This document shows positions 4,023 through 15,645 of a stretch of 20,798 nucleotides of DNA, piece by piece. Origin of the DNA: a virus; IMG/VR virus record IMGVR_UViG_3300017991_005227, positions 1-20,798 of that record, one strand, 5' to 3'. The first letter of the stretch is position 1. The number at the start of each line of letters is the position of its first letter. A program made the translations under genes and the position numbers. A model generated the notes under the pieces. The model was not told the origin of the DNA and searched no databases. It saw only the letters and a list, made by a program, of their open reading frames with translations.

Positions 4023-6710
4023 ATGGCAGTTAATCGAATCACACGAAATGTGGGTTATGGGCTTGGATCGCCTCTAATTGATCTAGCTCCAACGCCAATC
4101 ATAGCTCAGCGAGCTCCAACTACCGCCGATAAAGCGGAAACTGGTACGCTCTGGGTTGATCAGGCAAATGATAACGTATACGTATTGGCATCTGTTACAT
4201 CCAATGTAGCTTCTTGGCAAATAACTACGGCTGAGGGAACTGGAGGTACAGACGGCCAGTTGCTCATTGGTGAAACGGGTGCTGACCCATCATGGGCAAA
4301 TCTCACCTCCAGTGGTGGCACGCTTGTTATAACAAATGGTGCAGGCGCTATTAATATGGAAGTATCAGGTGCTACTGTAAGCTCATTTCCAACAGATGCT
4401 GGTACAGCTAATCCGCTTTTAGGGGCTACCAATATAGCTGGAGGCTCGAACTTAAATACATCTGCTGCAGGTAATACTGTAACGCTTAATTTAGATGCTA
4501 GTCCTGCTATAACAGGATCTTTGACGGTTGCTGATAGCTTTACCATGTCGGCAGGCACGTGTACCATAACAGCAGATGATAATACAGCAGACGTAATATA
4601 CTTACATGCAGATGGTGGTACCTCTGAAACCATTAGGCTTCATGCTGATCAGGGAACGGGTGTAGCTTCTGTTGCGCTTATATCAGATGTCGGAGGAATA
4701 ACTCTAGATGCAGGAATAGCTAGCGCAGATGCTATTAATATAGATGCGTCAGATGCTGCAGGCGGTATAGACATAGATTATGGCACAGGTGGCTGTGCCG
4801 TTGATGGTGCAAACGGTGCGTTTACGCTTCAAACAGGAACCGGAGCAATTAGCTTGGGGGCTGACGCAGCTGCTAAAACAATCACTCTAGGCAACCCAAC
4901 TGGTGCAACGCAGGTGAATGTTGATTGTGGAACTGGTGGAGCATCATTTGGAGCTTCTGCAACTGCGCATACAACAACAGTAGGTGGAACAAATACAACC
5001 TCTGCGACAGTTATACAGTCTGGTACGGGTGATGTTACAGTTACCTCTACAGACGCTATTCTTTTAGATTCTGCAGGCGTGCTAGAACTTAACTCTTCTG
5101 GAGGTGTTATTAGTGTTGGAAACGATGCAGTGGCACAAGCGATTAATATTGGTACAGGCGCAGCTGCTAGAACAATCACTGTAGGAAATGGCACAGGCGC
5201 TACTTCAGTAGTACTAGATTGTGGTACCGGCGCGCTTAATGTTGGAACAAACGCGATTGCGCATACAGTAACTGTAGGAACAACAACCGGCGCAGGGGCT
5301 ACAACCATACAGGCTGGAACAGGTGCTGTAACTATCAATGGCGGTGGTGCAGTAGACGTTGATGCCGTGGGTGCCTTGTCCCTTAACTCTTCTGGTGCTG
5401 CTATAAATGTTGGTGATGATGCAGTTGCTCAAAATATTAATATTGGTACAGGAGCAGCAGCTCGTACGGTTACTATAGGTAACATAACAGGTGCGACTGC
5501 AGTTGATATAAACACTGGTTCAGGTGGTTGTGCGATTACCACAACGGATGCAACATTAGCGCTAAATTCTGGAACGGGGGCGGTAAATATTGGAACTGAT
5601 GCGGCCGCTCATACAGTAACTGTGGGTTCAAACACTGGAGCTGCTGATACTGCGATACAGTCTGGTACTGGCGGTATTGACATGAATACGTATACTGGTG
5701 ACTTTGACCTTAATACTGGTGGTGGAGCTGTTACTATTAATTCTGGTACAGGTGCTATGGATATAGCAGCAGATGCAACAGCACATATATTAACGCTTGG
5801 AAGTACAAACACAACGTCGCAGACAATAGTTCAATCAGGGACTGGGGATGTTAACATAACATCAACAGACGCAGTTACAGTTGATGCAGCAGGTGTTCTA
5901 GAATTGAACTCGAGTGCAGGTGTAATAGGAATAGGAAATGACGCGGTAGCTCAAAACATTAATATGGGGACTGGAGCAGCCGCAAGAACTATAACAATCG
6001 GTAATATTACTGGTGCGACAGCATTGGCTCTAAACTCAGGAACAGGGCATATAACTCTTACTTCGACAGGCGCTGGTGACATTGTCCTTGTTGGGGGCGA
6101 TGCCATTACATTGGATGCAGTAGGTGTAGTTGAGCTCAACTCCTCTGGTGCAGCAATAGGAATAGGAACTGACGCGGATGCATTTGCAATTAACATAGGT
6201 ACCGGCGCATCAGCTAGAACAATCACTGTAGGAAATGGATCTGGCGCGACAAGTGTAGTGCTTGAAGCAGGTACAGGAGCTGTTAACATAGGCACAAACG
6301 CGATTGCTCATACAACAACTGTTGGCACAACAACGGGCGCAGCGGACACAACAATTCAAGCAGGTACAGGTGGGATTACTTTGTCAGCAGCTGGTATATG
6401 CGATGTTGTTCCGGCAACTAATTCGGTAGCAGGTGTAGCGCTTACTATTGATGCAAACGTTGGCGTAGGGACATTTACAGGGCAAGTAACAGCATCAGGA
6501 GCGCAGGTTACGTTTACTGTTACTAATAGTGTTGTTACTGTTAATTCTGCCATTTTGTGCACTGTTGCTAATAAGGGTGCAAATGACGCAAGGCTTACTA
6601 TAGAGCGGGTACAACCAGCAGCTGGATCGTTTACAGTTCAGTGTCAGAATAATGGAGCTGCAGCACTTAACGGCGATGTTATCATTACATTTTGGGTGCT
6701 AGCGGTTTAA
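4023..6710 (+). CDS. giant repetitive fibre / receptor-binding protein (895 aa)
   Basis: A Gly/Ala/Thr/Asp-rich, Lys-poor protein. Residues about 30-70 contain APTTADKAETGTLWVDQ followed by VYVLAS and a Trp, a module typical of phage fibre N-termini and shared with the protein at 12162-13163. From residue 75 (GTDGQLLIGETGADPSW) it carries one copy of the repeat that also builds the second fibre. Residues about 270-790 are irregular repeats of the type INIGTGAAARTIT, GNxTGAT, GTGAVNIGT, AHTVTVG and TTIQAGTG, consistent with a beta-helical shaft. The last 90 residues (from VALTIDANVGVG to the end) form a compact beta domain seen at the C-termini of other phage fibres. AAGGAG (4010-4015) precedes the ATG by 7 nt. 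It ends before tandem terminators, so it is probably its own transcription unit. Fibre or adhesin is the best reading; the receptor is unknown. Confidence 0.75.
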   Translation: MAVNRITRNVGYGLGSPLIDLAPTPIIAQRAPTTADKAETGTLWVDQANDNVYVLASVTSNVASWQITTAEGTGGTDGQLLIGETGADPSWANLTSSGGTLVITNGAGAINMEVSGATVSSFPTDAGTANPLLGATNIAGGSNLNTSAAGNTVTLNLDASPAITGSLTVADSFTMSAGTCTITADDNTADVIYLHADGGTSETIRLHADQGTGVASVALISDVGGITLDAGIASADAINIDASDAAGGIDIDYGTGGCAVDGANGAFTLQTGTGAISLGADAAAKTITLGNPTGATQVNVDCGTGGASFGASATAHTTTVGGTNTTSATVIQSGTGDVTVTSTDAILLDSAGVLELNSSGGVISVGNDAVAQAINIGTGAAARTITVGNGTGATSVVLDCGTGALNVGTNAIAHTVTVGTTTGAGATTIQAGTGAVTINGGGAVDVDAVGALSLNSSGAAINVGDDAVAQNINIGTGAAARTVTIGNITGATAVDINTGSGGCAITTTDATLALNSGTGAVNIGTDAAAHTVTVGSNTGAADTAIQSGTGGIDMNTYTGDFDLNTGGGAVTINSGTGAMDIAADATAHILTLGSTNTTSQTIVQSGTGDVNITSTDAVTVDAAGVLELNSSAGVIGIGNDAVAQNINMGTGAAARTITIGNITGATALALNSGTGHITLTSTGAGDIVLVGGDAITLDAVGVVELNSSGAAIGIGTDADAFAINIGTGASARTITVGNGSGATSVVLEAGTGAVNIGTNAIAHTTTVGTTTGAADTTIQAGTGGITLSAAGICDVVPATNSVAGVALTIDANVGVGTFTGQVTASGAQVTFTVTNSVVTVNSAILCTVANKGANDARLTIERVQPAAGSFTVQCQNNGAAALNGDVIITFWVLAV
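4950..6370 (+). repeat. degenerate internal repeats of the fibre shaft
   Basis: The coding sequence repeats at several spacings. The INIGTGAAARTIT block starts at 5142, 5436, 5958 and 6189, so the spacings are 294, 522 and 231 nt: in frame but irregular. A longer unit, AHTTTVGGTNTTSATVIQSG to ELNSS near 4965-5097, recurs near 5775-5910. NAIAHT(V/T)TVGTTTGA recurs near 5250 and 6300. Most copies differ in synonymous codons, pointing to old duplication kept at protein level. A 26-nt stretch near 5167 and 6212 is identical. Confidence 0.75.
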
Positions 6711-10319: not shown

Positions 10320-10520
10320 ATGATTAAGTTAGTTGGTATAGCGATAGTTGCTGGAGCAGTTATTGTTGGTGTGGCATCAAGGTTTATCTTTAAGAAGTCG
10401 GACAATGTTGTTGAAGAGATAGCAGAGAAGGTTATTAAAGAGAAGACTGGGTATGATGTTGATTTAAGTCCAGATACTCCGGAAAAGGTTAGGGATGCCA
10501 AAAACAAACGCAATAAATAA
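10320..10520 (+). CDS. small one-TM membrane protein (66 aa)
   Basis: The N-terminus is one hydrophobic helix (LVGIAIVAGAVIVGVASRFIF, residues 4-24). It is followed by a charged tail containing VVEEIAEKVIKEKTGYDVDL and ending DTPEKVRDAKNKRNK. There is no lipobox or cleavage motif. GAGGG lies about 7 nt before the ATG, which is 3 nt after the HNH stop. The last 26 nt overlap the next fibre gene. It could be a holin-like or virion membrane-associated protein, but the position inside a fibre cluster and the single TM segment do not settle this. The function is unknown. Confidence 0.7.
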   Translation: MIKLVGIAIVAGAVIVGVASRFIFKKSDNVVEEIAEKVIKEKTGYDVDLSPDTPEKVRDAKNKRNK

Positions 10521-11157
10521 TCAGTCTGCTGAGTTAACTATCGATCCAGGTGCATCTGGAGATTCGTTTATTCAGTTTGATATTAACGGTACGGGTGAGT
10601 TTCGCATTGGGGTAGATGATACTGATTCTGACAAGTTTAAAATATCGCAGGGTAGTGCGCTAGGTACTAATGATACGTTTATTATGACGGCTTCAGGTGA
10701 GAGAACAATGCCCTTACAGCCAGCATTTTTAGGCTATCTTGCTCTACAAGATTCAAATGTTAGTGGAGAGGGCACTGTTTATACTTTAGGTAGCGGAAAT
10801 GCCCTTACGGAAGTGTTTGATCAGGGTGGTGATTTTGTTACCACAGGTACATTTACGGCGCCAGTTACAGGCAGATATTATTTTAGCATGTCTCTTCAGA
10901 TAGGCGGTGTAGGTGCTGGACATTATGGAGAAATGAGATTGGTAACTTCGAATGGTACGTATTTGTTGTATAAAAATGACATAGTAAATATGGGTACAAC
11001 TGTTGAGTATACAAGCAGTGCTTTTGTTGACATGGATGCGTCAGATACAGCAACTACAACGTTGGATGTTGCAGGTGGAGCAAAGACAATTGATGTAGCT
11101 GGAGGCACATTGGGCGGCGGGGCCCCTACGTGGTTTTCTGGTTATTTAGTTGCGTAA
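10495..11157 (+). CDS. short fibre protein with C1q-like head, copy A (220 aa)
   Basis: The N-terminal 75 residues (AELTIDPGASGDSFIQFDIN, EFRIGVDD, FKISQGSALG) form a module often found before the tip domain of phage fibres. Residues about 77-220 look like a C1q/TNF-type jelly roll: AFLGYLALQDSNVSGEGT, then FDQGGDF, the hallmark GTFTAPVTGRYYFS, and a closing WFSGYLVA. Such heads trimerise and bind receptors. The gene overlaps the small TM gene by 26 nt; AAAAGG lies about 6 nt before the ATG. The next gene is a tandem paralogue. A receptor-binding or short tail fibre is likely; an alternative is a capsid-attached fibre. Confidence 0.8.
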   Translation: MPKTNAINNQSAELTIDPGASGDSFIQFDINGTGEFRIGVDDTDSDKFKISQGSALGTNDTFIMTASGERTMPLQPAFLGYLALQDSNVSGEGTVYTLGSGNALTEVFDQGGDFVTTGTFTAPVTGRYYFSMSLQIGGVGAGHYGEMRLVTSNGTYLLYKNDIVNMGTTVEYTSSAFVDMDASDTATTTLDVAGGAKTIDVAGGTLGGGAPTWFSGYLVA

Positions 11158-11166
11158 GGAGATTGT

Positions 11167-11838
11167 ATGGCAAAAATAAATGCGATAAGCAATAAGTCTG
11201 CAGAGCTTACTGTAGACCCGGGAGCTTCTGGAGACTCATTTGTACAATTTGATATTAACACAACGGGAGAGTTTCGTATTGGCGTAGATGATGATGCTTC
11301 TGATGCGTTTAAAATTTCTCAAGGCAGTGCGCTTGGTTCTAATGATACATTTGTAATGTCCGCGGCAGGTGAGCGGACAATGCCCTTGCAGCCAGCGTTT
11401 TTGGCGTATTTGGGAACTACTGATAGTAATGTTACTGGTGATGGCACCTACTTTACTGTTGGTAGTGGCAATGCAATGACAGAAGTGTTTGATCAGAATA
11501 GTGATTTTAACACAAACGGAACATTTACAGCTCCTGTTACTGGGCGCTATTTGTTTTGTGGTCAGATCGAGCTCGATGATATAGTGTCTGCGCATACCTT
11601 GGGTTTGGGTGTATTTGATTCATCAAATGGTTTGTGGAGATTTGATAGAAGTGATTTTGGGAATATTGGTGTTACAAATGGGTTACAAGTCGGTGGTTCT
11701 GTTCTCATAGATATGGATGCTGCGGATATTGCGACTATGGATATTGGTGTTTTTAATAGCACGAAAACGGTTGATGTAATTGCTGTTGCGCCGGCAACCG
11801 GCGCGGGAACTTGGTTTTGTGGGTATTTAGCGGTTTGA
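11167..11838 (+). CDS. short fibre protein with C1q-like head, copy B (223 aa)
   Basis: A tandem paralogue of the preceding gene. The first 80 residues align without gaps with about 65 identities (AELTVDPGASGDSFVQFDIN, EFRIGVDDDASD, GERTMPLQPAFL). The C1q-like head keeps the framework (DSNVTGDGT, FDQNSDF, GTFTAPVTGRYLF, WFCGYLAV), but its middle, from about residue 130 to 210, is largely different. That is the face expected to contact the receptor, so the pair looks like duplication followed by diversification of binding specificity. AAGGAG at the end of copy A precedes this ATG by about 5 nt. Both are probably translated from one message. Confidence 0.82.
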   Translation: MAKINAISNKSAELTVDPGASGDSFVQFDINTTGEFRIGVDDDASDAFKISQGSALGSNDTFVMSAAGERTMPLQPAFLAYLGTTDSNVTGDGTYFTVGSGNAMTEVFDQNSDFNTNGTFTAPVTGRYLFCGQIELDDIVSAHTLGLGVFDSSNGLWRFDRSDFGNIGVTNGLQVGGSVLIDMDAADIATMDIGVFNSTKTVDVIAVAPATGAGTWFCGYLAV

Positions 11839-12161: not shown

Positions 12162-13163
12162 ATGGCATCAAGAAGGGATAGTAGAAGGACGGGTTTGAAT
12201 CCGTTAGCGTATATGGGTGTAGAGCCTGTTTCTCCTCCGTTGTTGTTTACAGACAATAGGGCGCCTACCTCGAATGATTATGCTAACTACAATGTTGGAA
12301 CAATTTGGGTTGATAGAAGCACAGCTCCTTCTGAAGATATTTGGATGTTGGTTAATAAAGATAATAATGTAGCTCGATGGGTTCAATTTGATACTGGTTC
12401 TGGTAATGTGCAAACATTAACTGGCGATGTAGGAGGAGCCGTTGGGCCAGATGCTCTCGGTAATATAGATATTACAGGAGGTAACAGCATTTCTACTGCT
12501 GGTACTCCAGCATCGAACAATGTTGAGGTTAGTGTATCTGGCACTACGCAATATGTTCTCCAGATTGGGGATGCGAGTGGAGCCTTGGATAATCTTCCTG
12601 ACGGGGTTGGCGTTGATGGTGAGGTTTTAACGTCTCGTGGTCCTGGAATGGCGCCTATGTGGGAGCCATCGCCTTTCGCCTTTACGGGATTTCAGGCGTA
12701 TATGTCTACGAGTCAGTTTAATGTTACTGGAGATAATACTACTTATACATTACCATTTGATCTTACTGAGTTTAATTTTGGAAATGATTTCGATACAGCT
12801 AATCATTGGTATGTAGCCCCAACAGATGGATATTATCAGTTTGTTTATACGGTTTTTTTTAATAATATTAATCCTGCGAATGCATATGATAATAGTGAAG
12901 TATTCTTGGTTCGATTTAGGCCGGCAGGGGCTTTAACGCGTAATTATCCGCATTCAAATATTAATCCTCAACCTATTACGGATAATACGACCTCTACATA
13001 TGAGTTTGATTGTTGTAATACTGATATTATTGAGTTGCAAGCTGGTGATCGTGTTTATTTGACAGCTAAGGTTGGCAGTAGTACAAAAACAGTTGGTTTT
13101 ACAGGTTTATTTACCACGCAGCTTAGAACAAGGTTGGCAGGTTGGTTGTTGACTGAAATATAA
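12162..13163 (+). CDS. third fibre protein with C1q-like head (333 aa)
   Basis: A mosaic of modules used elsewhere in the window. Residues about 27-75 (FTDNRAPTSNDY, VGTIWVDRS, ARWVQFD) match the N-terminal module of the giant fibre. LTGDVGGAVGPDALGNIDI matches the start of the second fibre. VSGTTQYVLQIGDASGAL and GEVLTSRGPGMAPMW match its 107-residue repeat. The last 155 residues form a C1q/TNF-like head: FTGFQAYMS, FNVTGDNTTYTLPF, FDTANHWYVAPTDGYYQFVY, LQAGDRVYLTAKV and a final GWLLTEI. AGGAG lies 6 nt before the ATG. It is the last rightward late gene before the gene-free interval. The role is receptor binding by family resemblance. Confidence 0.82.
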   Translation: MASRRDSRRTGLNPLAYMGVEPVSPPLLFTDNRAPTSNDYANYNVGTIWVDRSTAPSEDIWMLVNKDNNVARWVQFDTGSGNVQTLTGDVGGAVGPDALGNIDITGGNSISTAGTPASNNVEVSVSGTTQYVLQIGDASGALDNLPDGVGVDGEVLTSRGPGMAPMWEPSPFAFTGFQAYMSTSQFNVTGDNTTYTLPFDLTEFNFGNDFDTANHWYVAPTDGYYQFVYTVFFNNINPANAYDNSEVFLVRFRPAGALTRNYPHSNINPQPITDNTTSTYEFDCCNTDIIELQAGDRVYLTAKVGSSTKTVGFTGLFTTQLRTRLAGWLLTEI

Positions 13164-13196
13164 AAAGTCTCATTAACTCTCTTTTACATAATAAAC

Positions 13197-13238
13197 GCAT
13201 CGTAATGCCCCTGGATAAATCCAGGGGCATTACGATGC
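13197..13238. repeat. perfect 19-bp inverted repeat with TAAA loop
   Basis: GCATCGTAATGCCCCTGGA (13197-13215), loop TAAA, then its exact complement (13220-13238). It lies 34 nt after the stop of the last fibre gene and would form a very stable hairpin in either transcript. No T-run follows, so it is not a textbook terminator. A bidirectional transcription block, an RNase III site or an element end are possible. A second, weaker hairpin (13241-13266, about 10 bp) follows directly. Confidence 0.7.
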
Positions 13239-13273
13239 CAGAAAAGCTTTCATTTAAAGGCTTTTCGTGTTAA

Positions 13274-13453
13274 TATTTCAATACTAGGGCGGGACACGTC
13301 CGAAGCCACGCCTGTGGAGATCAAGTGAGACCTGGGGAACATGCGTTAGTTCAAAGCTGTAAAAGTTCCCACGTGGAACTTAATAGCGATAACCAAGCAT
13401 ATTCCTTGGGCAATGATCGTCGAACCAGGAACGTGAAACCGCAAGGTTCATGA
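13274..13453 (+). pseudogene. tnpB C-terminal-like fragment overlapping an omega-RNA-like scaffold
   Basis: The frame between the TAA at 13271-13273 and the TGA at 13451-13453 reads YFNTRAGHVRSHACGDQVRP, then about 35 more residues ending RRTRNVKPQGS. The 'N-x-x-RAGHVR-x-HACGD-x-VRP' string resembles the tail just after the zinc-finger region of IS200/IS605 TnpB proteins, and the stop falls at the foot of the right-end hairpin as in intact elements. No start codon, RuvC motif or zinc finger is present: only 110 nt separate it from the fibre gene. Read as a remnant whose sequence may be kept for the overlapping RNA rather than for protein. The resemblance is from memory of the family, not from a search. 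Confidence 0.4.
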
Positions 13454-13485
13454 ATCCCCCGAATTTATTCGTGGGGAGTTGTCAA
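13275..13485 (+). ncRNA. orphan TnpB-type omega RNA / reRNA-like scaffold
   Basis: Dense hairpins: CCAC/GTGG near 13307-13316; AAGTTCC-CACGT-GGAACTT (13363-13381); CCAAG/CTTGG near 13393-13409; an ACC-GCAA-GGT stem with a GNRA tetraloop (13438-13447); and a final hairpin CCCCCGAAT-TT-ATTCGTGGGG (about 13456-13476). The order 'GCAA-capped stem, then GAATCCCCC hairpin, then GGGGAGTTGTCAA' is the typical 3' end of guide RNAs from IS200/IS605 elements, in which the guide is the sequence after the element end. Here it would begin at 13486 (ATATTCTTATTTTTTCTCC). No tnpB or iscB gene is adjacent. The 5' limit and any transcription are unknown. Confidence 0.5.
13452..13485 (+). mobile_element. IS608-like right end (IS200/IS605 family)
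   Basis: GAAT (13452-13455) stands directly at the foot of an imperfect hairpin whose 3' arm carries one unpaired T (13472), followed by GGAGTTG and TCAA (13482-13485). In IS608, TnpA recognises a hairpin with an extrahelical T, and GAAT guides cleavage after TCAA at the right end. All these parts are visible here. The left end is not clear: TTAC, the IS608 target flank, occurs at 13184-13187 and 13230-13233, but neither is followed by a matching AAAG-plus-hairpin with a bulged T. No transposase gene is present, so this is a remnant or a non-autonomous element. Confidence 0.55.
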
Positions 13486-13518
13486 ATATTCTTATTTTTT
13501 CTCCTTTTTTGGTTAAGT

Positions 13519-13538
13519 GAGGGGCCATGTGGCCCCTC
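13519..13538. repeat. GC-rich hairpin between convergent operons
   Basis: GAGGGGCC-ATGT-GGCCCCTC, an 8-bp perfect stem, lies 45 nt beyond the end of the leftward Erf gene. There is no T-run on either side, so a rho-independent terminator is not clear. It may block transcription between the rightward late genes and the leftward early operon. Confidence 0.55.
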
Positions 13539-13582
13539 TTAAGCAAGCAGTTCTCCCATACTAAGGAGTGCATGAAAGCTTT

Positions 13583-14323
13583 TTATTTACCGTCTCTGAG
13601 TTGTACGATTTGTCTTATTCTCTTTATTGCAGTGAGAAATTTAGACTTTGGGATGTCCGAGAGTGTTTGTATTTTCATTTTTTCTAGTATCTCTTCGGCT
13701 AGGTCGGTGTGTGATTTTAGTTCGTATCTTATTTCTTCTAGTTGTTCCTTGGTAATGGTTTCGTATGATTGTTCTTTTGGATTGTATTTGTGGTTTAGTT
13801 TTTTGCCTTCGTTAAAGTCTTTTCGTTGTTGATGTACGGCTACTTCGCCATCATCGTCTTCGTCTGAAGATACGACGCCTACAAGGGATGCGTATGCGTA
13901 TCGTTTTAGGTATGTTATGTAGCTGCCTAGAGATTGTACGTCATTTTTGGGTGGTACTATTCTCATTCTGGACTCTATCCATTGTCCTGAGCTGTGTAGT
14001 AGTATTGTGTTTAGGATGTTTGCTCCGTCTTCGTTTTGTACTATTTGTTGTAGGACGGATAGTCCGTTTTTGGCTAGTGCTGGGCGTGATACTTTGACTA
14101 TCTCGGCTAAGTCTGAGTATCTTGACTTGAAGTATGGATTTTCTTTTGTAAGGCCAGCAATTTTAAACTCTGCTTGCGCTTTTGCTAGCGCAGCGCTCAA
14201 GTCCTTAATAGATTCAGAGCGTGCCGGAGCAATCGTTTTTGGTGGTTTTATGTCTAAGTTTTGTATTAGTTGTTCTATGTTGGTTATTTTGTCGAGTATT
14301 TCAATGCTCTTTGCTTCTTCCAT
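13583..14323 (-). CDS. erf: Erf-family single-strand annealing recombinase (246 aa)
   Basis: The core (residues about 40-165) fits the ERF superfamily: LSAALAKAQAEFKIAGLTK, then NPYFKSRYSDLAEIVKVSRP, ALAKNGLSVLQQI, LLHSSGQWIESRMRI and YITYLKRYAYASLVGVVSS followed by the acidic DEDDDGE. ERF proteins form rings on single-stranded DNA and anneal homologous strands during phage recombination and genome circularisation. The C-terminal 80 residues are charged and helical (EQLEEIRYELKSHTDLAEEI), probably for partner binding. It is the last gene of the leftward operon. Its ribosome binding site, GGAG 7 nt before the ATG, lies inside the 3' arm of a 12-bp hairpin, suggesting translational control. A shorter Erf-like gene is immediately upstream. 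Confidence 0.88.
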   Translation of the reverse strand: MEEAKSIEILDKITNIEQLIQNLDIKPPKTIAPARSESIKDLSAALAKAQAEFKIAGLTKENPYFKSRYSDLAEIVKVSRPALAKNGLSVLQQIVQNEDGANILNTILLHSSGQWIESRMRIVPPKNDVQSLGSYITYLKRYAYASLVGVVSSDEDDDGEVAVHQQRKDFNEGKKLNHKYNPKEQSYETITKEQLEEIRYELKSHTDLAEEILEKMKIQTLSDIPKSKFLTAIKRIRQIVQLRDGK

Positions 14324-14372: not shown

Positions 14373-14834
14373 TTAGTCTTCGTTGTCGCATCCTAGGCTT
14401 AGCTGTGATTGTAGTAATCTTCGTTTTGTGTATGTGAATACGGTACTTACAGCTTGTTGATATGGCAGTCCTTTTTTTGCCATGGCTTCAACGAGCGCCG
14501 GGTCTGGATTTGCTATATCGGTAGCGTCGAGCCACTGTCCGCTTGTGTGAAATAGTGTTGAGTGCATTATACGTGTCTTTAAGTCCGAATAGTATTCTGG
14601 GTGCTGGTATAGAAGTATGTTGTGTTGTGCTAATATCTTTTTGCAGCAATTTATGTAATCTTCTAGGTCTGAGTAAGGCCCTCTGTTTCCAGATTGGCTT
14701 TTTTCTGGAGTTGGCATGCTTAATGTTGCAGCTATTAGGTCTGGTATTATTTTATCTATTTTGTCAGACATAAGTTTTTTTGAGTGTTTTATTTCTTTTA
14801 TGGGGTGTGTTGTTAGTAGTTCTTTATTTTCCAT
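14373..14834 (-). CDS. second, shorter Erf-like protein (153 aa)
   Basis: It resembles the core of the next gene: GPYSDLEDYINCCKKILAQHN parallels the SRYSDLAEIVKVSRPALAKNG stretch of the first Erf. TRIMHSTLFHTSGQWLDATD parallels the LLHSSGQWIES segment, and AVSTVFTYTKRRLLQSQLSLGCDNED parallels the ITYLKRYAYASLVGVVSSDED motif. The N-terminus is shorter, the acidic tract is reduced to DNED at the very end, and there is no C-terminal extension. Tandem Erf-like genes suggest duplication, perhaps giving mixed rings or a modulator. The start ATG (14834) overlaps the end of the zinc-ribbon gene by 11 nt; GGAAA lies about 8 nt upstream, so coupling to the previous gene is likely. Confidence 0.72.
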   Translation of the reverse strand: MENKELLTTHPIKEIKHSKKLMSDKIDKIIPDLIAATLSMPTPEKSQSGNRGPYSDLEDYINCCKKILAQHNILLYQHPEYYSDLKTRIMHSTLFHTSGQWLDATDIANPDPALVEAMAKKGLPYQQAVSTVFTYTKRRLLQSQLSLGCDNED

Positions 14835-15047: not shown

Positions 15048-15287
15048 TTATTCATTATTAGGTTCCTGCAATTCTTTTAGTGCGTCAAATAATTGTACCT
15101 TATCTGGATGCTGCGCTCTAATAAGTGCGTCGACTGGTTCTAGTTCTTTTAGTATGTCTGACATCTTTAGGTGTGTTTTGTCTAGTTTTTCTCGTAGTTT
15201 TTTGGCTTCTTTGCCGAGGGTTGTGAATAAGTCTAGTTGTTCGTCTATGAGTTTTTGTAGTGTATCTGAAGCTTTTTTAATTGTCAT
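15048..15287 (-). CDS. coiled-coil protein of unknown function (79 aa)
   Basis: Almost the whole protein is predicted helix with heptad-like spacing (TLQKLIDEQLDLFTTLGKEAK, then KLREKLDKTHLKMSDILKEL), ending LFDALKELQEPNNE. No metal ligands or membrane segment are present. AAGGAA about 6 nt before the ATG is a good ribosome binding site, and the ATG overlaps the stop of the upstream gene (15284-15287). Its first 89 nt are duplicated, with a 12-nt deletion, as a 25-codon ORF at 15559-15636, so this gene was the source of a recent local duplication. The function is not recognised; it may interact with other early proteins through the coiled coil. Confidence 0.75.
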   Translation of the reverse strand: MTIKKASDTLQKLIDEQLDLFTTLGKEAKKLREKLDKTHLKMSDILKELEPVDALIRAQHPDKVQLFDALKELQEPNNE

Positions 15288-15544
15288 TGATCTTTCCTTG
15301 TTGATATGCCATATAATTCTGGGCGTACTTTTTTTTCTATCTGTTCTATGATTATTCTCATCATTATTGACAGCAAGTTAGATGCGTCGCTTGCAGGCTC
15401 GCAGACTTCCCAATATTCTTGTAGTTCGTCTAGTATGTTGTGAATCTCGTCATATGGCTTTTCGAGTTTGTTTACTAACTCTATTAGTCTTTCCTTTTTT
15501 GGTTTCTTTAAGTTACCGCTCTTGAATAGGTATTTTTCATTCAT
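15284..15544 (-). CDS. small helical protein of unknown function (86 aa)
   Basis: The N-terminus is basic (MNEKYLFKSGNLKKPKKERL), followed by long amphipathic helices (LIELVNKLEKPYDEIHNIL, LLSIMMRIIIEQIEKKVRP) and an acidic middle (WEVCEPASDAS). There is one Cys and no clear metal site. GAGGAGTAT about 12 nt before the ATG resembles the ribosome binding region of the first gene of the operon (GAGGAGTAT 5 nt before ATG at 15840), suggesting that both leaders derive from a common block. It overlaps the next gene by 4 nt (ATGA), implying coupled translation. The function is unknown. Confidence 0.7.
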   Translation of the reverse strand: MNEKYLFKSGNLKKPKKERLIELVNKLEKPYDEIHNILDELQEYWEVCEPASDASNLLSIMMRIIIEQIEKKVRPELYGISTRKDQ

Positions 15545-15558
15545 CTCTGGATACTCCT

Positions 15559-15636
15559 CTATTTGGCTTCTTTGCCGAGGGTTGTGAATAAGTCTAGGAG
15601 TTTTTGTAGTGTATCTGAAGCTTTTTTGATTGTCAT
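15559..15636 (-). pseudogene. truncated 25-codon duplicate of the coiled-coil gene
   Basis: Positions 15562-15638 repeat 15201-15289 almost exactly, with one mismatch and a 12-nt deletion between two TAGAC direct repeats. Leftward this gives a 25-residue ORF whose sequence (MTIKKASDTLQKLLDLFTTL, then GKEAK) equals the start of the coiled-coil protein minus four residues; a TAG then ends it. It keeps its own AAGGAT ribosome binding site, so it may still be translated as a short peptide. It looks like debris of a recent partial gene duplication. Confidence 0.7.
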
Positions 15637-15645
15637 TGTTAATCC

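Follow-up and report, generated by a model that had tools for sequence, protein, structure and literature searches.

In the window, by which we mean the whole 20.8-kb stretch of viral DNA analysed here, plus-strand tail genes that end at 13163 converge with a minus-strand gene block that ends at 13583, and between them lies a 298-bp insert (13188–13485), followed from 13486 onward by phage flank. The initial annotation had placed an omega-RNA-like element at 13274–13505; such a feature is indeed found there, but the element that carries it reaches further left, includes a left end and stops at 13485. The features of the locus are as follows, with the evidence in parentheses.

13184–13187, plus strand: TTAC, target and left cleavage site and predicted TAM, owned by the phage (sequence; left junction against sister phage L019)
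13188–13485, plus strand: whole non-autonomous IS200/IS605 (IS608-type) element (absent from L019; ends fit the IS608 type)
13197–13238, no strand assigned: left-end palindrome of 42 nt with a perfect 19-bp stem (DNA fold)
13241–13267, no strand assigned: second left-end hairpin (DNA fold)
13273–13368, plus strand: match to Rfam RF02269 (HPnc0580), 44.2 bits (gathering score 37)
13274–13450, plus strand: open frame, relic of a TnpB C-terminal tail (...RSHACGDQVRP...) with no catalytic part (likeness to TnpB tails)
13284–13413, plus strand: omega-RNA scaffold core, match to covariance model R2, 81.5 bits, E 6e-20 (model built without the window)
13287–13301, plus strand: helix H1, GGGCG/CGUCC with loop GGACA (4 of 5 pairs changed on both sides)
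13319–13418, plus strand: helix H6, GAUCA (13319–13323) with UGAUC (13414–13418) (3 of 5 pairs changed on both sides)
13331–13410, plus strand: helix H2, CCUGGGGAA (13331–13339) with UUCCUUGGG (13402–13410), enclosing the long arm (covariation)
13364–13380, plus strand: inner hairpin AGUUCC/GGAACU of the long arm, helix 5 (long-arm covariation test)
13434–13450, plus strand: stem capped by a GCAA tetraloop of the GNRA type (RNA fold)
13452–13485, plus strand: IS608-type right end, GAAT, bulged-T hairpin and TCAA (same form in L200, L203 and L232)
13486–13505, plus strand: predicted would-be guide ATATTCTTATTTTTTCTCCT, in the phage flank (position only)

In the flanking genes, 13583–14323 and 14373–14834 encode adjacent Erf-like single-strand annealing proteins, the second shorter, in what looks like a duplication or a split. 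The tail region holds tandem paralogous genes with similar N-termini (10495–11157 and 11167–11838), a very repetitive 895-aa protein is encoded at 4023–6710, and a duplicated segment (85% identical, from cross-matches of contig L018 to the window) lies at 15201–15289 and 15562–15638.

Related phage loci (N = 24) were gathered by a search with the neighbouring Erf-like gene. The closest long relative, sister phage contig L019 (several blocks of ~90–95% DNA identity, and 95% across the 83 bases to the right of the insert), has an uninterrupted site with the flanks joined at the insertion point: it reads ...GTCTCATCAACTCTCTTTTCATTTTCTTATTTTTTCTCC..., and the window reads ...GTCTCATTAACTCTCTTTTAC[298 bp]ATATTCTTATTTTTTCTCC.... 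This comparison set the left junction after TTAC (13184–13187) and the right junction after TCAA (13482–13485). Around the target, L019 has TTTT-C|ATTTTC and the window TTTTAC|element|ATATTC, with one base different at the target. The insertion is clean, lies 3′ of a short target and is without target duplication, and both subterminal hairpins are present beside a right end of the IS608 type, all features by which an IS200/IS605 mini-IS or PATE is recognised. IS608-type elements insert 3′ of TTAC on the left and end in ...TCAA on the right; the two junctions therefore match the insertion mode expected of them. The right part of the element was confirmed in a second contig (L018), 99.9% identical to the window. 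Covariance model R2 detected one copy in the window, with no second match there and none in 12 related phage records, and blastn of the region against phages returned no match. The comparison with L019 demonstrated the insertion and fixed its boundaries computationally.

Both ends are strongly structured. On the left, the DNA fold of 13175–13275 has a free energy of –30.3 kcal/mol (z = –10.5). On the right, GAAT (13452–13455) runs into a hairpin at 13455–13477, TCCCCCGAA-TTTA-TTCG-T-GGGGA, with one unpaired T in the 3′ arm. The signature GAAT, a perfect stem broken by one T in the 3′ arm and TCAA within 12 nt, which the initial annotation had read correctly, has a single occurrence in the window; 23 related phage loci lacked it, and 200 shuffled windows together gave one (both strands). 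Right ends of like form adjoin TnpB-family scaffolds in L200, L203 and L232. We considered whether the likeness to an IS right end is due to chance and the region is instead a terminator or belongs to a different class of structured RNA, as terminators are common between converging gene blocks and the left palindrome scores as a minus-strand terminator. However, the boundaries of the structured region coincide with the insertion, in each of the two phages a terminator-like hairpin (GAGGGGCC..GGCCCCTC) is found beyond the insert, and both the independent covariance model (E 6e-20) and the covariation described below contradict it, leaving this explanation hardly credible. That the large left palindrome serves as a terminator of the phage itself was similarly rejected, since it is part of the insert and L019 lacks it.

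The interior of the insert folds into a chain of hairpins, as initially annotated, with the GCAA-capped stem at its 3′ side; its fold (–69.2 kcal/mol) was better than that of every shuffled sequence (–55.2 ± 4.4 kcal/mol; 0/200 as good). The initial annotation had proposed covariance-model searches, a comparison with empty sites in related phages and a look for compensatory changes in the stems, and all three bore it out: the RF02269 match exceeds the gathering score, L019 lacks the insert, and compensatory changes were found in H1, H6, H2 and the long arm. Model R2 was built only from Helicobacter and Dependentiae mini-elements. For covariation, 12 Bacillota loci (9/12 with a tnpB match by tblastn) and two Dependentiae mini-elements were compared with the window (n = 15). 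Over H1, H6 and the first H2 pairs, 95.5% of cells were paired against 68.5% after shuffling, 44 cells were changed on both sides against 14, and the covariation score was 0.665 against 0.172 (0/500; slid structures ≤0.157), numbers that are descriptive because the alignment was hand-trimmed to helix arms and the structure was partly read from the same sequences. In helix H2, 95.5% of cells were paired and 4/9 pairs were changed on both sides. In the long arm, tested on the mini-elements, 16/34 pairs were changed on both sides (0/500 shuffles as high); H4 and H5 were weakly supported, with register shifts in the window and Dependentiae sequences. A TnpB omega-RNA pseudoknot joins the 3′ end of the scaffold to an upstream GAA (ISDra2 geometry, PMC10097598); GA at 13302–13303, invariant in A4, is a candidate partner for the UC of UCAA. 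We conclude from these computations that the scaffold is homologous to, and conserved in structure with, the scaffolds of TnpB elements and HPnc0580. Together with the empty site in L019, the Rfam match, the independent model and the covariation uphold the reading of an orphan TnpB omega-RNA, without tnpB and with its guide starting at 13486. The predicted guide (13486–13505) shares 19/20 bases with the L019 empty site.

TnpA and TnpB queries gave no match in the window or in the 24 related loci, and Pfam PF07282 (TnpB) and PF01797 (Y1 transposase) gave none in the window and 12 whole related records; positive controls were detected in both searches. Computation thus shows tnpA and tnpB to be absent from the available sequence, to which the statement applies because the contig is a fragment and may be incomplete. 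The frame resembling a TnpB tail that was originally noted is open over 13274–13450 (59 codons; YFNTRAGHVRSHACGDQVRPGEHA... / YFNTRAGHVRSHACGDQVRPGEHALV...) and resembles TnpB tails adjoining homologous scaffolds, TRVGITRSYACGD in L165 and ...YAYGDCVRPA in L202; tails from Bacillota read ...RSYAYGDCVRPA... and ...RIYAFGESIRPT... where the window has RSHACGDQVRP. The L165 record (BK070119.1, a Helicobacter felis prophage record) contains four TnpB matches, two with identical scores.

In full-length relatives the scaffold overlaps the tnpB 3′ end. The motif chain of the window follows or overlaps that end in L200, L202, L205, L208, L210 and L216, and the full chain (H1, GGAGA, AAGACC, stem, GG, second arm, ATGAA, GGAA, right end) begins at or inside the tnpB tail in four Bacillota loci (L200, L202, L208 and L210). 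The 5′ hairpin with the GAAG..ACGCCTGTGGAGA motif was found at tnpB 3′ ends in Helicobacter prophages, haloarchaeal plasmids, Dependentiae and Bacillota. In two further Bacillota loci (L203 and L206, ~1501–1640), IS608-type right ends accompany a short scaffold, with no tnpB by tblastn. A blastn search of plasmids with the 221-bp scaffold gave only short matches, mostly of the first scaffold hairpin in or near haloarchaeal TnpB genes, and was set aside. Pattern matches in Secundilactobacillus (L003) and Mucilaginibacter (L007) had no Rfam match and were attributed to chance; a Bacteroidota search, which lacked a positive control, gave no match.

Relatives without tnpB are found in bacteria as dispersed units of roughly 275–320 bp. 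In whole-genome searches, each of four Helicobacter genomes had 5 to 11 matches, and 1/101 Dependentiae genomes had two copies that are 88% identical to each other. Most Helicobacter copies among those listed have a TATAAT-like box directly 5′ of the scaffold. In the Dependentiae copy L046, the left side shows TTAC followed by AAAG and a hairpin, and the right side consists of GAAT, a hairpin and TCAA. No tnpB was detected in the fetched flanks of the Helicobacter and Dependentiae mini-elements by tblastn with Dependentiae TnpBs, and the Dependentiae genome holding these nearest bacterial mini-elements has no TnpB match and only a broken TnpA. A Dependentiae host for the phage is at most tentative: this group supplies the closest bacterial mini-elements, but its genomes gave no match to a phage protein, and only one of the 101 carries the RNA.

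HPnc0580 RNA is carried on miniIS605, a non-autonomous element of H. pylori isolates (PMC6531487). Since HPnc0580 is the RNA of miniIS605, the insert is read as a phage-borne non-autonomous IS200/IS605 element that keeps the guide RNA. Like the insert, miniIS605/HPnc0580 of Helicobacter is short, lacks tnpA and tnpB, has both ends and carries the same omega-RNA scaffold including the long arm; it is multicopy, and it differs in ending in TTCAC with another left-end sequence, where the phage element is of the TTAC/TCAA type, and in its mostly present TATAAT-like box, whereas the phage element has the extra GCAA-capped hairpin and a phage setting. ISHp608 shares the TTAC target and the right end of GAAT, unpaired-T hairpin and TCAA that characterise IS608, but has the tnpA and tnpB that the insert lacks, and the left-end palindrome of the insert is longer and more perfect than the IS608 hairpin and is preceded by AAAC rather than AAAG. 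A PATE-like element of Halanaerobium hydrogeniformans consists solely of a left-end hairpin, the terminal 58 nt of tnpB and a complete right end; it is chromosomal and, in the section of PMC7290912 that treats it, is described without a guide RNA. TnpB works with a bound RNA that derives from the 3′ end of tnpB plus the right end and whose guide comes from the flank, and it requires a TAM beside the target (TTGAT for ISDra2); the ISDra2 omega-RNA/reRNA thus shares its plan with the insert, in which tnpB is missing and the scaffold sequence and arms differ (PMC10097598). TldR cassettes of temperate phages also place a TnpB-type guide RNA in a phage, but next to tldR, whereas the insert has no protein gene (PMC13418256).

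Non-autonomous IS605 mini-elements are already known (miniIS605; the PATE-like element, PMC7290912). Less familiar are the occurrence of one in a phage for which an empty site can be shown, the recognition that RF02269 is an omega-RNA of TnpB type, and the long-arm subtype, here met only without tnpB. In those parts of the literature naming HPnc0580 that we consulted, no link to TnpB guide RNAs was found; the present results tie RF02269, annotated as an H. pylori sRNA family, to these RNAs.

Taken together, the insert is very probably a 298-bp, palindrome-associated IS608-type mini-IS, inserted 3′ of TTAC, that could be mobilised in trans and whose omega-RNA could be used by an outside TnpB. 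As it contains neither tnpA nor tnpB, both enzymes would have to come from elsewhere. Cutting and joining of the two ends would fall to a Y1 transposase (TnpA) of the host, acting in trans. The retained scaffold would correspond to the part that overlaps the tnpB 3′ end in full-length elements, a rightward transcript would carry the adjacent phage sequence as its guide, and a TnpB from the host or a resident IS would load this RNA in trans. Guide RNAs acting in trans have been proposed for IscB. The loaded TnpB would cut TTAC-flanked copies of the site lacking the element, and such cutting would favour retention of the element and its spread between co-infecting phages. Transcription, mobilisation by TnpA, loading of TnpB and target cutting are steps that we infer. 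If such RNAs do load a host TnpB, a gene-free 300-bp DNA could run an RNA-guided homing drive between phages, by analogy with the gene drive for ISs on plasmids that PMC11870625 reports for TnpB. The empty site of L019 has TTTC, not TTAC, at the TAM position, which may reflect either escape or drift.

Three other fates had been offered at the outset. A decaying remnant is disfavoured, as the ends and helices are intact and the insertion is absent from a close relative; nor does the phage appear to have kept the scaffold of a larger element, since what lies between the gene blocks is a whole small mobile element with both ends. Use as a decoy or regulator would mean that the phage employs the RNA itself, e.g. 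to titrate the TnpB of the host or to direct a TnpB-like repressor without nuclease activity against a gene of the host or of a rival phage. Such use has a precedent in phage-encoded RNA-guided TldR repressors (PMC13418256), and a figure legend in that paper suggests possible trans action of guide RNAs where tldR is broken. We nevertheless regard such domestication as improbable: the clean mobile-element ends and the absence from the sister phage point to a recent insertion, and a guide formed by the flank is what any ordinary IS would have. Trans use of a host TnpB is favoured over these fates.

A stronger competitor, for which the chances are somewhat short of even, is that the mini-element was recently mobilised in trans and is a dead passenger whose RNA is never made or never meets a TnpB in the host, its scaffold being intact for lack of time. 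With the insertion absent from a close relative, helix conservation in a single copy is uninformative on selection inside the phage; a host TnpB was not identified; and no sigma-70-like promoter was found in 13150–13600, so that any transcript would have to arise by tail-operon read-through or from a promoter of a different type. Against this, the helices are kept by changes on both sides in Helicobacter, Dependentiae and phage mini-elements despite the loss of tnpB, so selection has acted on the RNA in such elements.

The long arm (126–139 nt) sets these mini-elements apart. In Campylobacterota, tnpB ended at the scaffold in 0/24 inspected long-arm loci, which are related copies and not independent events, against 5/6 short-arm loci; two of the 24 have an unrelated tnpB on the opposite strand. 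A long arm is present in Helicobacter and Dependentiae mini-elements, in the window phage and in one other viral lineage (L245/L255, 56.7 bits, without tnpB), and no long-arm scaffold with tnpB was recognised among the best matches inspected from 398 Bacillota, 101 Dependentiae and 298 Campylobacterota genomes. One could speculate, at rather long odds, that scaffolds with the long arm (H2 and the H5/H4/H3 arm inside it) form an omega-RNA class of their own that acts only in trans: protein-free phage and bacterial mini-elements would drive their own spread through an enlarged guide RNA that competes for host TnpB.

Guide-RNA-only IS elements were also found in other phage contigs. The core pattern occurred at 29 sites in 28 viral contigs, about two-thirds of them at a tnpB. 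About seven distinct further sites, not previously described, are without tnpB (L232, L238, L240/L250, L245/L255, L247, L251 and L257), as judged upstream by tblastn with 10 TnpB queries and open-frame inspection, which a divergent TnpB could escape. Clear IS608-type right ends between phage genes were seen in L232 and L257. Of three other patterns searched in viral contigs, GTGAGACCTGNNGNNNATGCGTT had no match, the 40 matches of ATGCGTTNG..CAAA..GTAAAA were due to chance (none below E 1 with model R1), and among the 36 matches of GTGAGACCTGNNGNANNTGC only L245/L255 was real, the other 34 being without a model match. In L257, a scaffold with a TCAA right end (5979–6100) is flanked by genes for an HNH endonuclease and a likely, though weakly matched, small terminase, with no tnpB. 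The L232 record (G1207), a 79-kb viral contig, has three omega-RNA-like sites by model R2, at 10403, 17857 and 68231; the best of them is the L232 site itself, which has genes for RNA ligase and dNMP kinase on its two sides and lacks an upstream tnpB.
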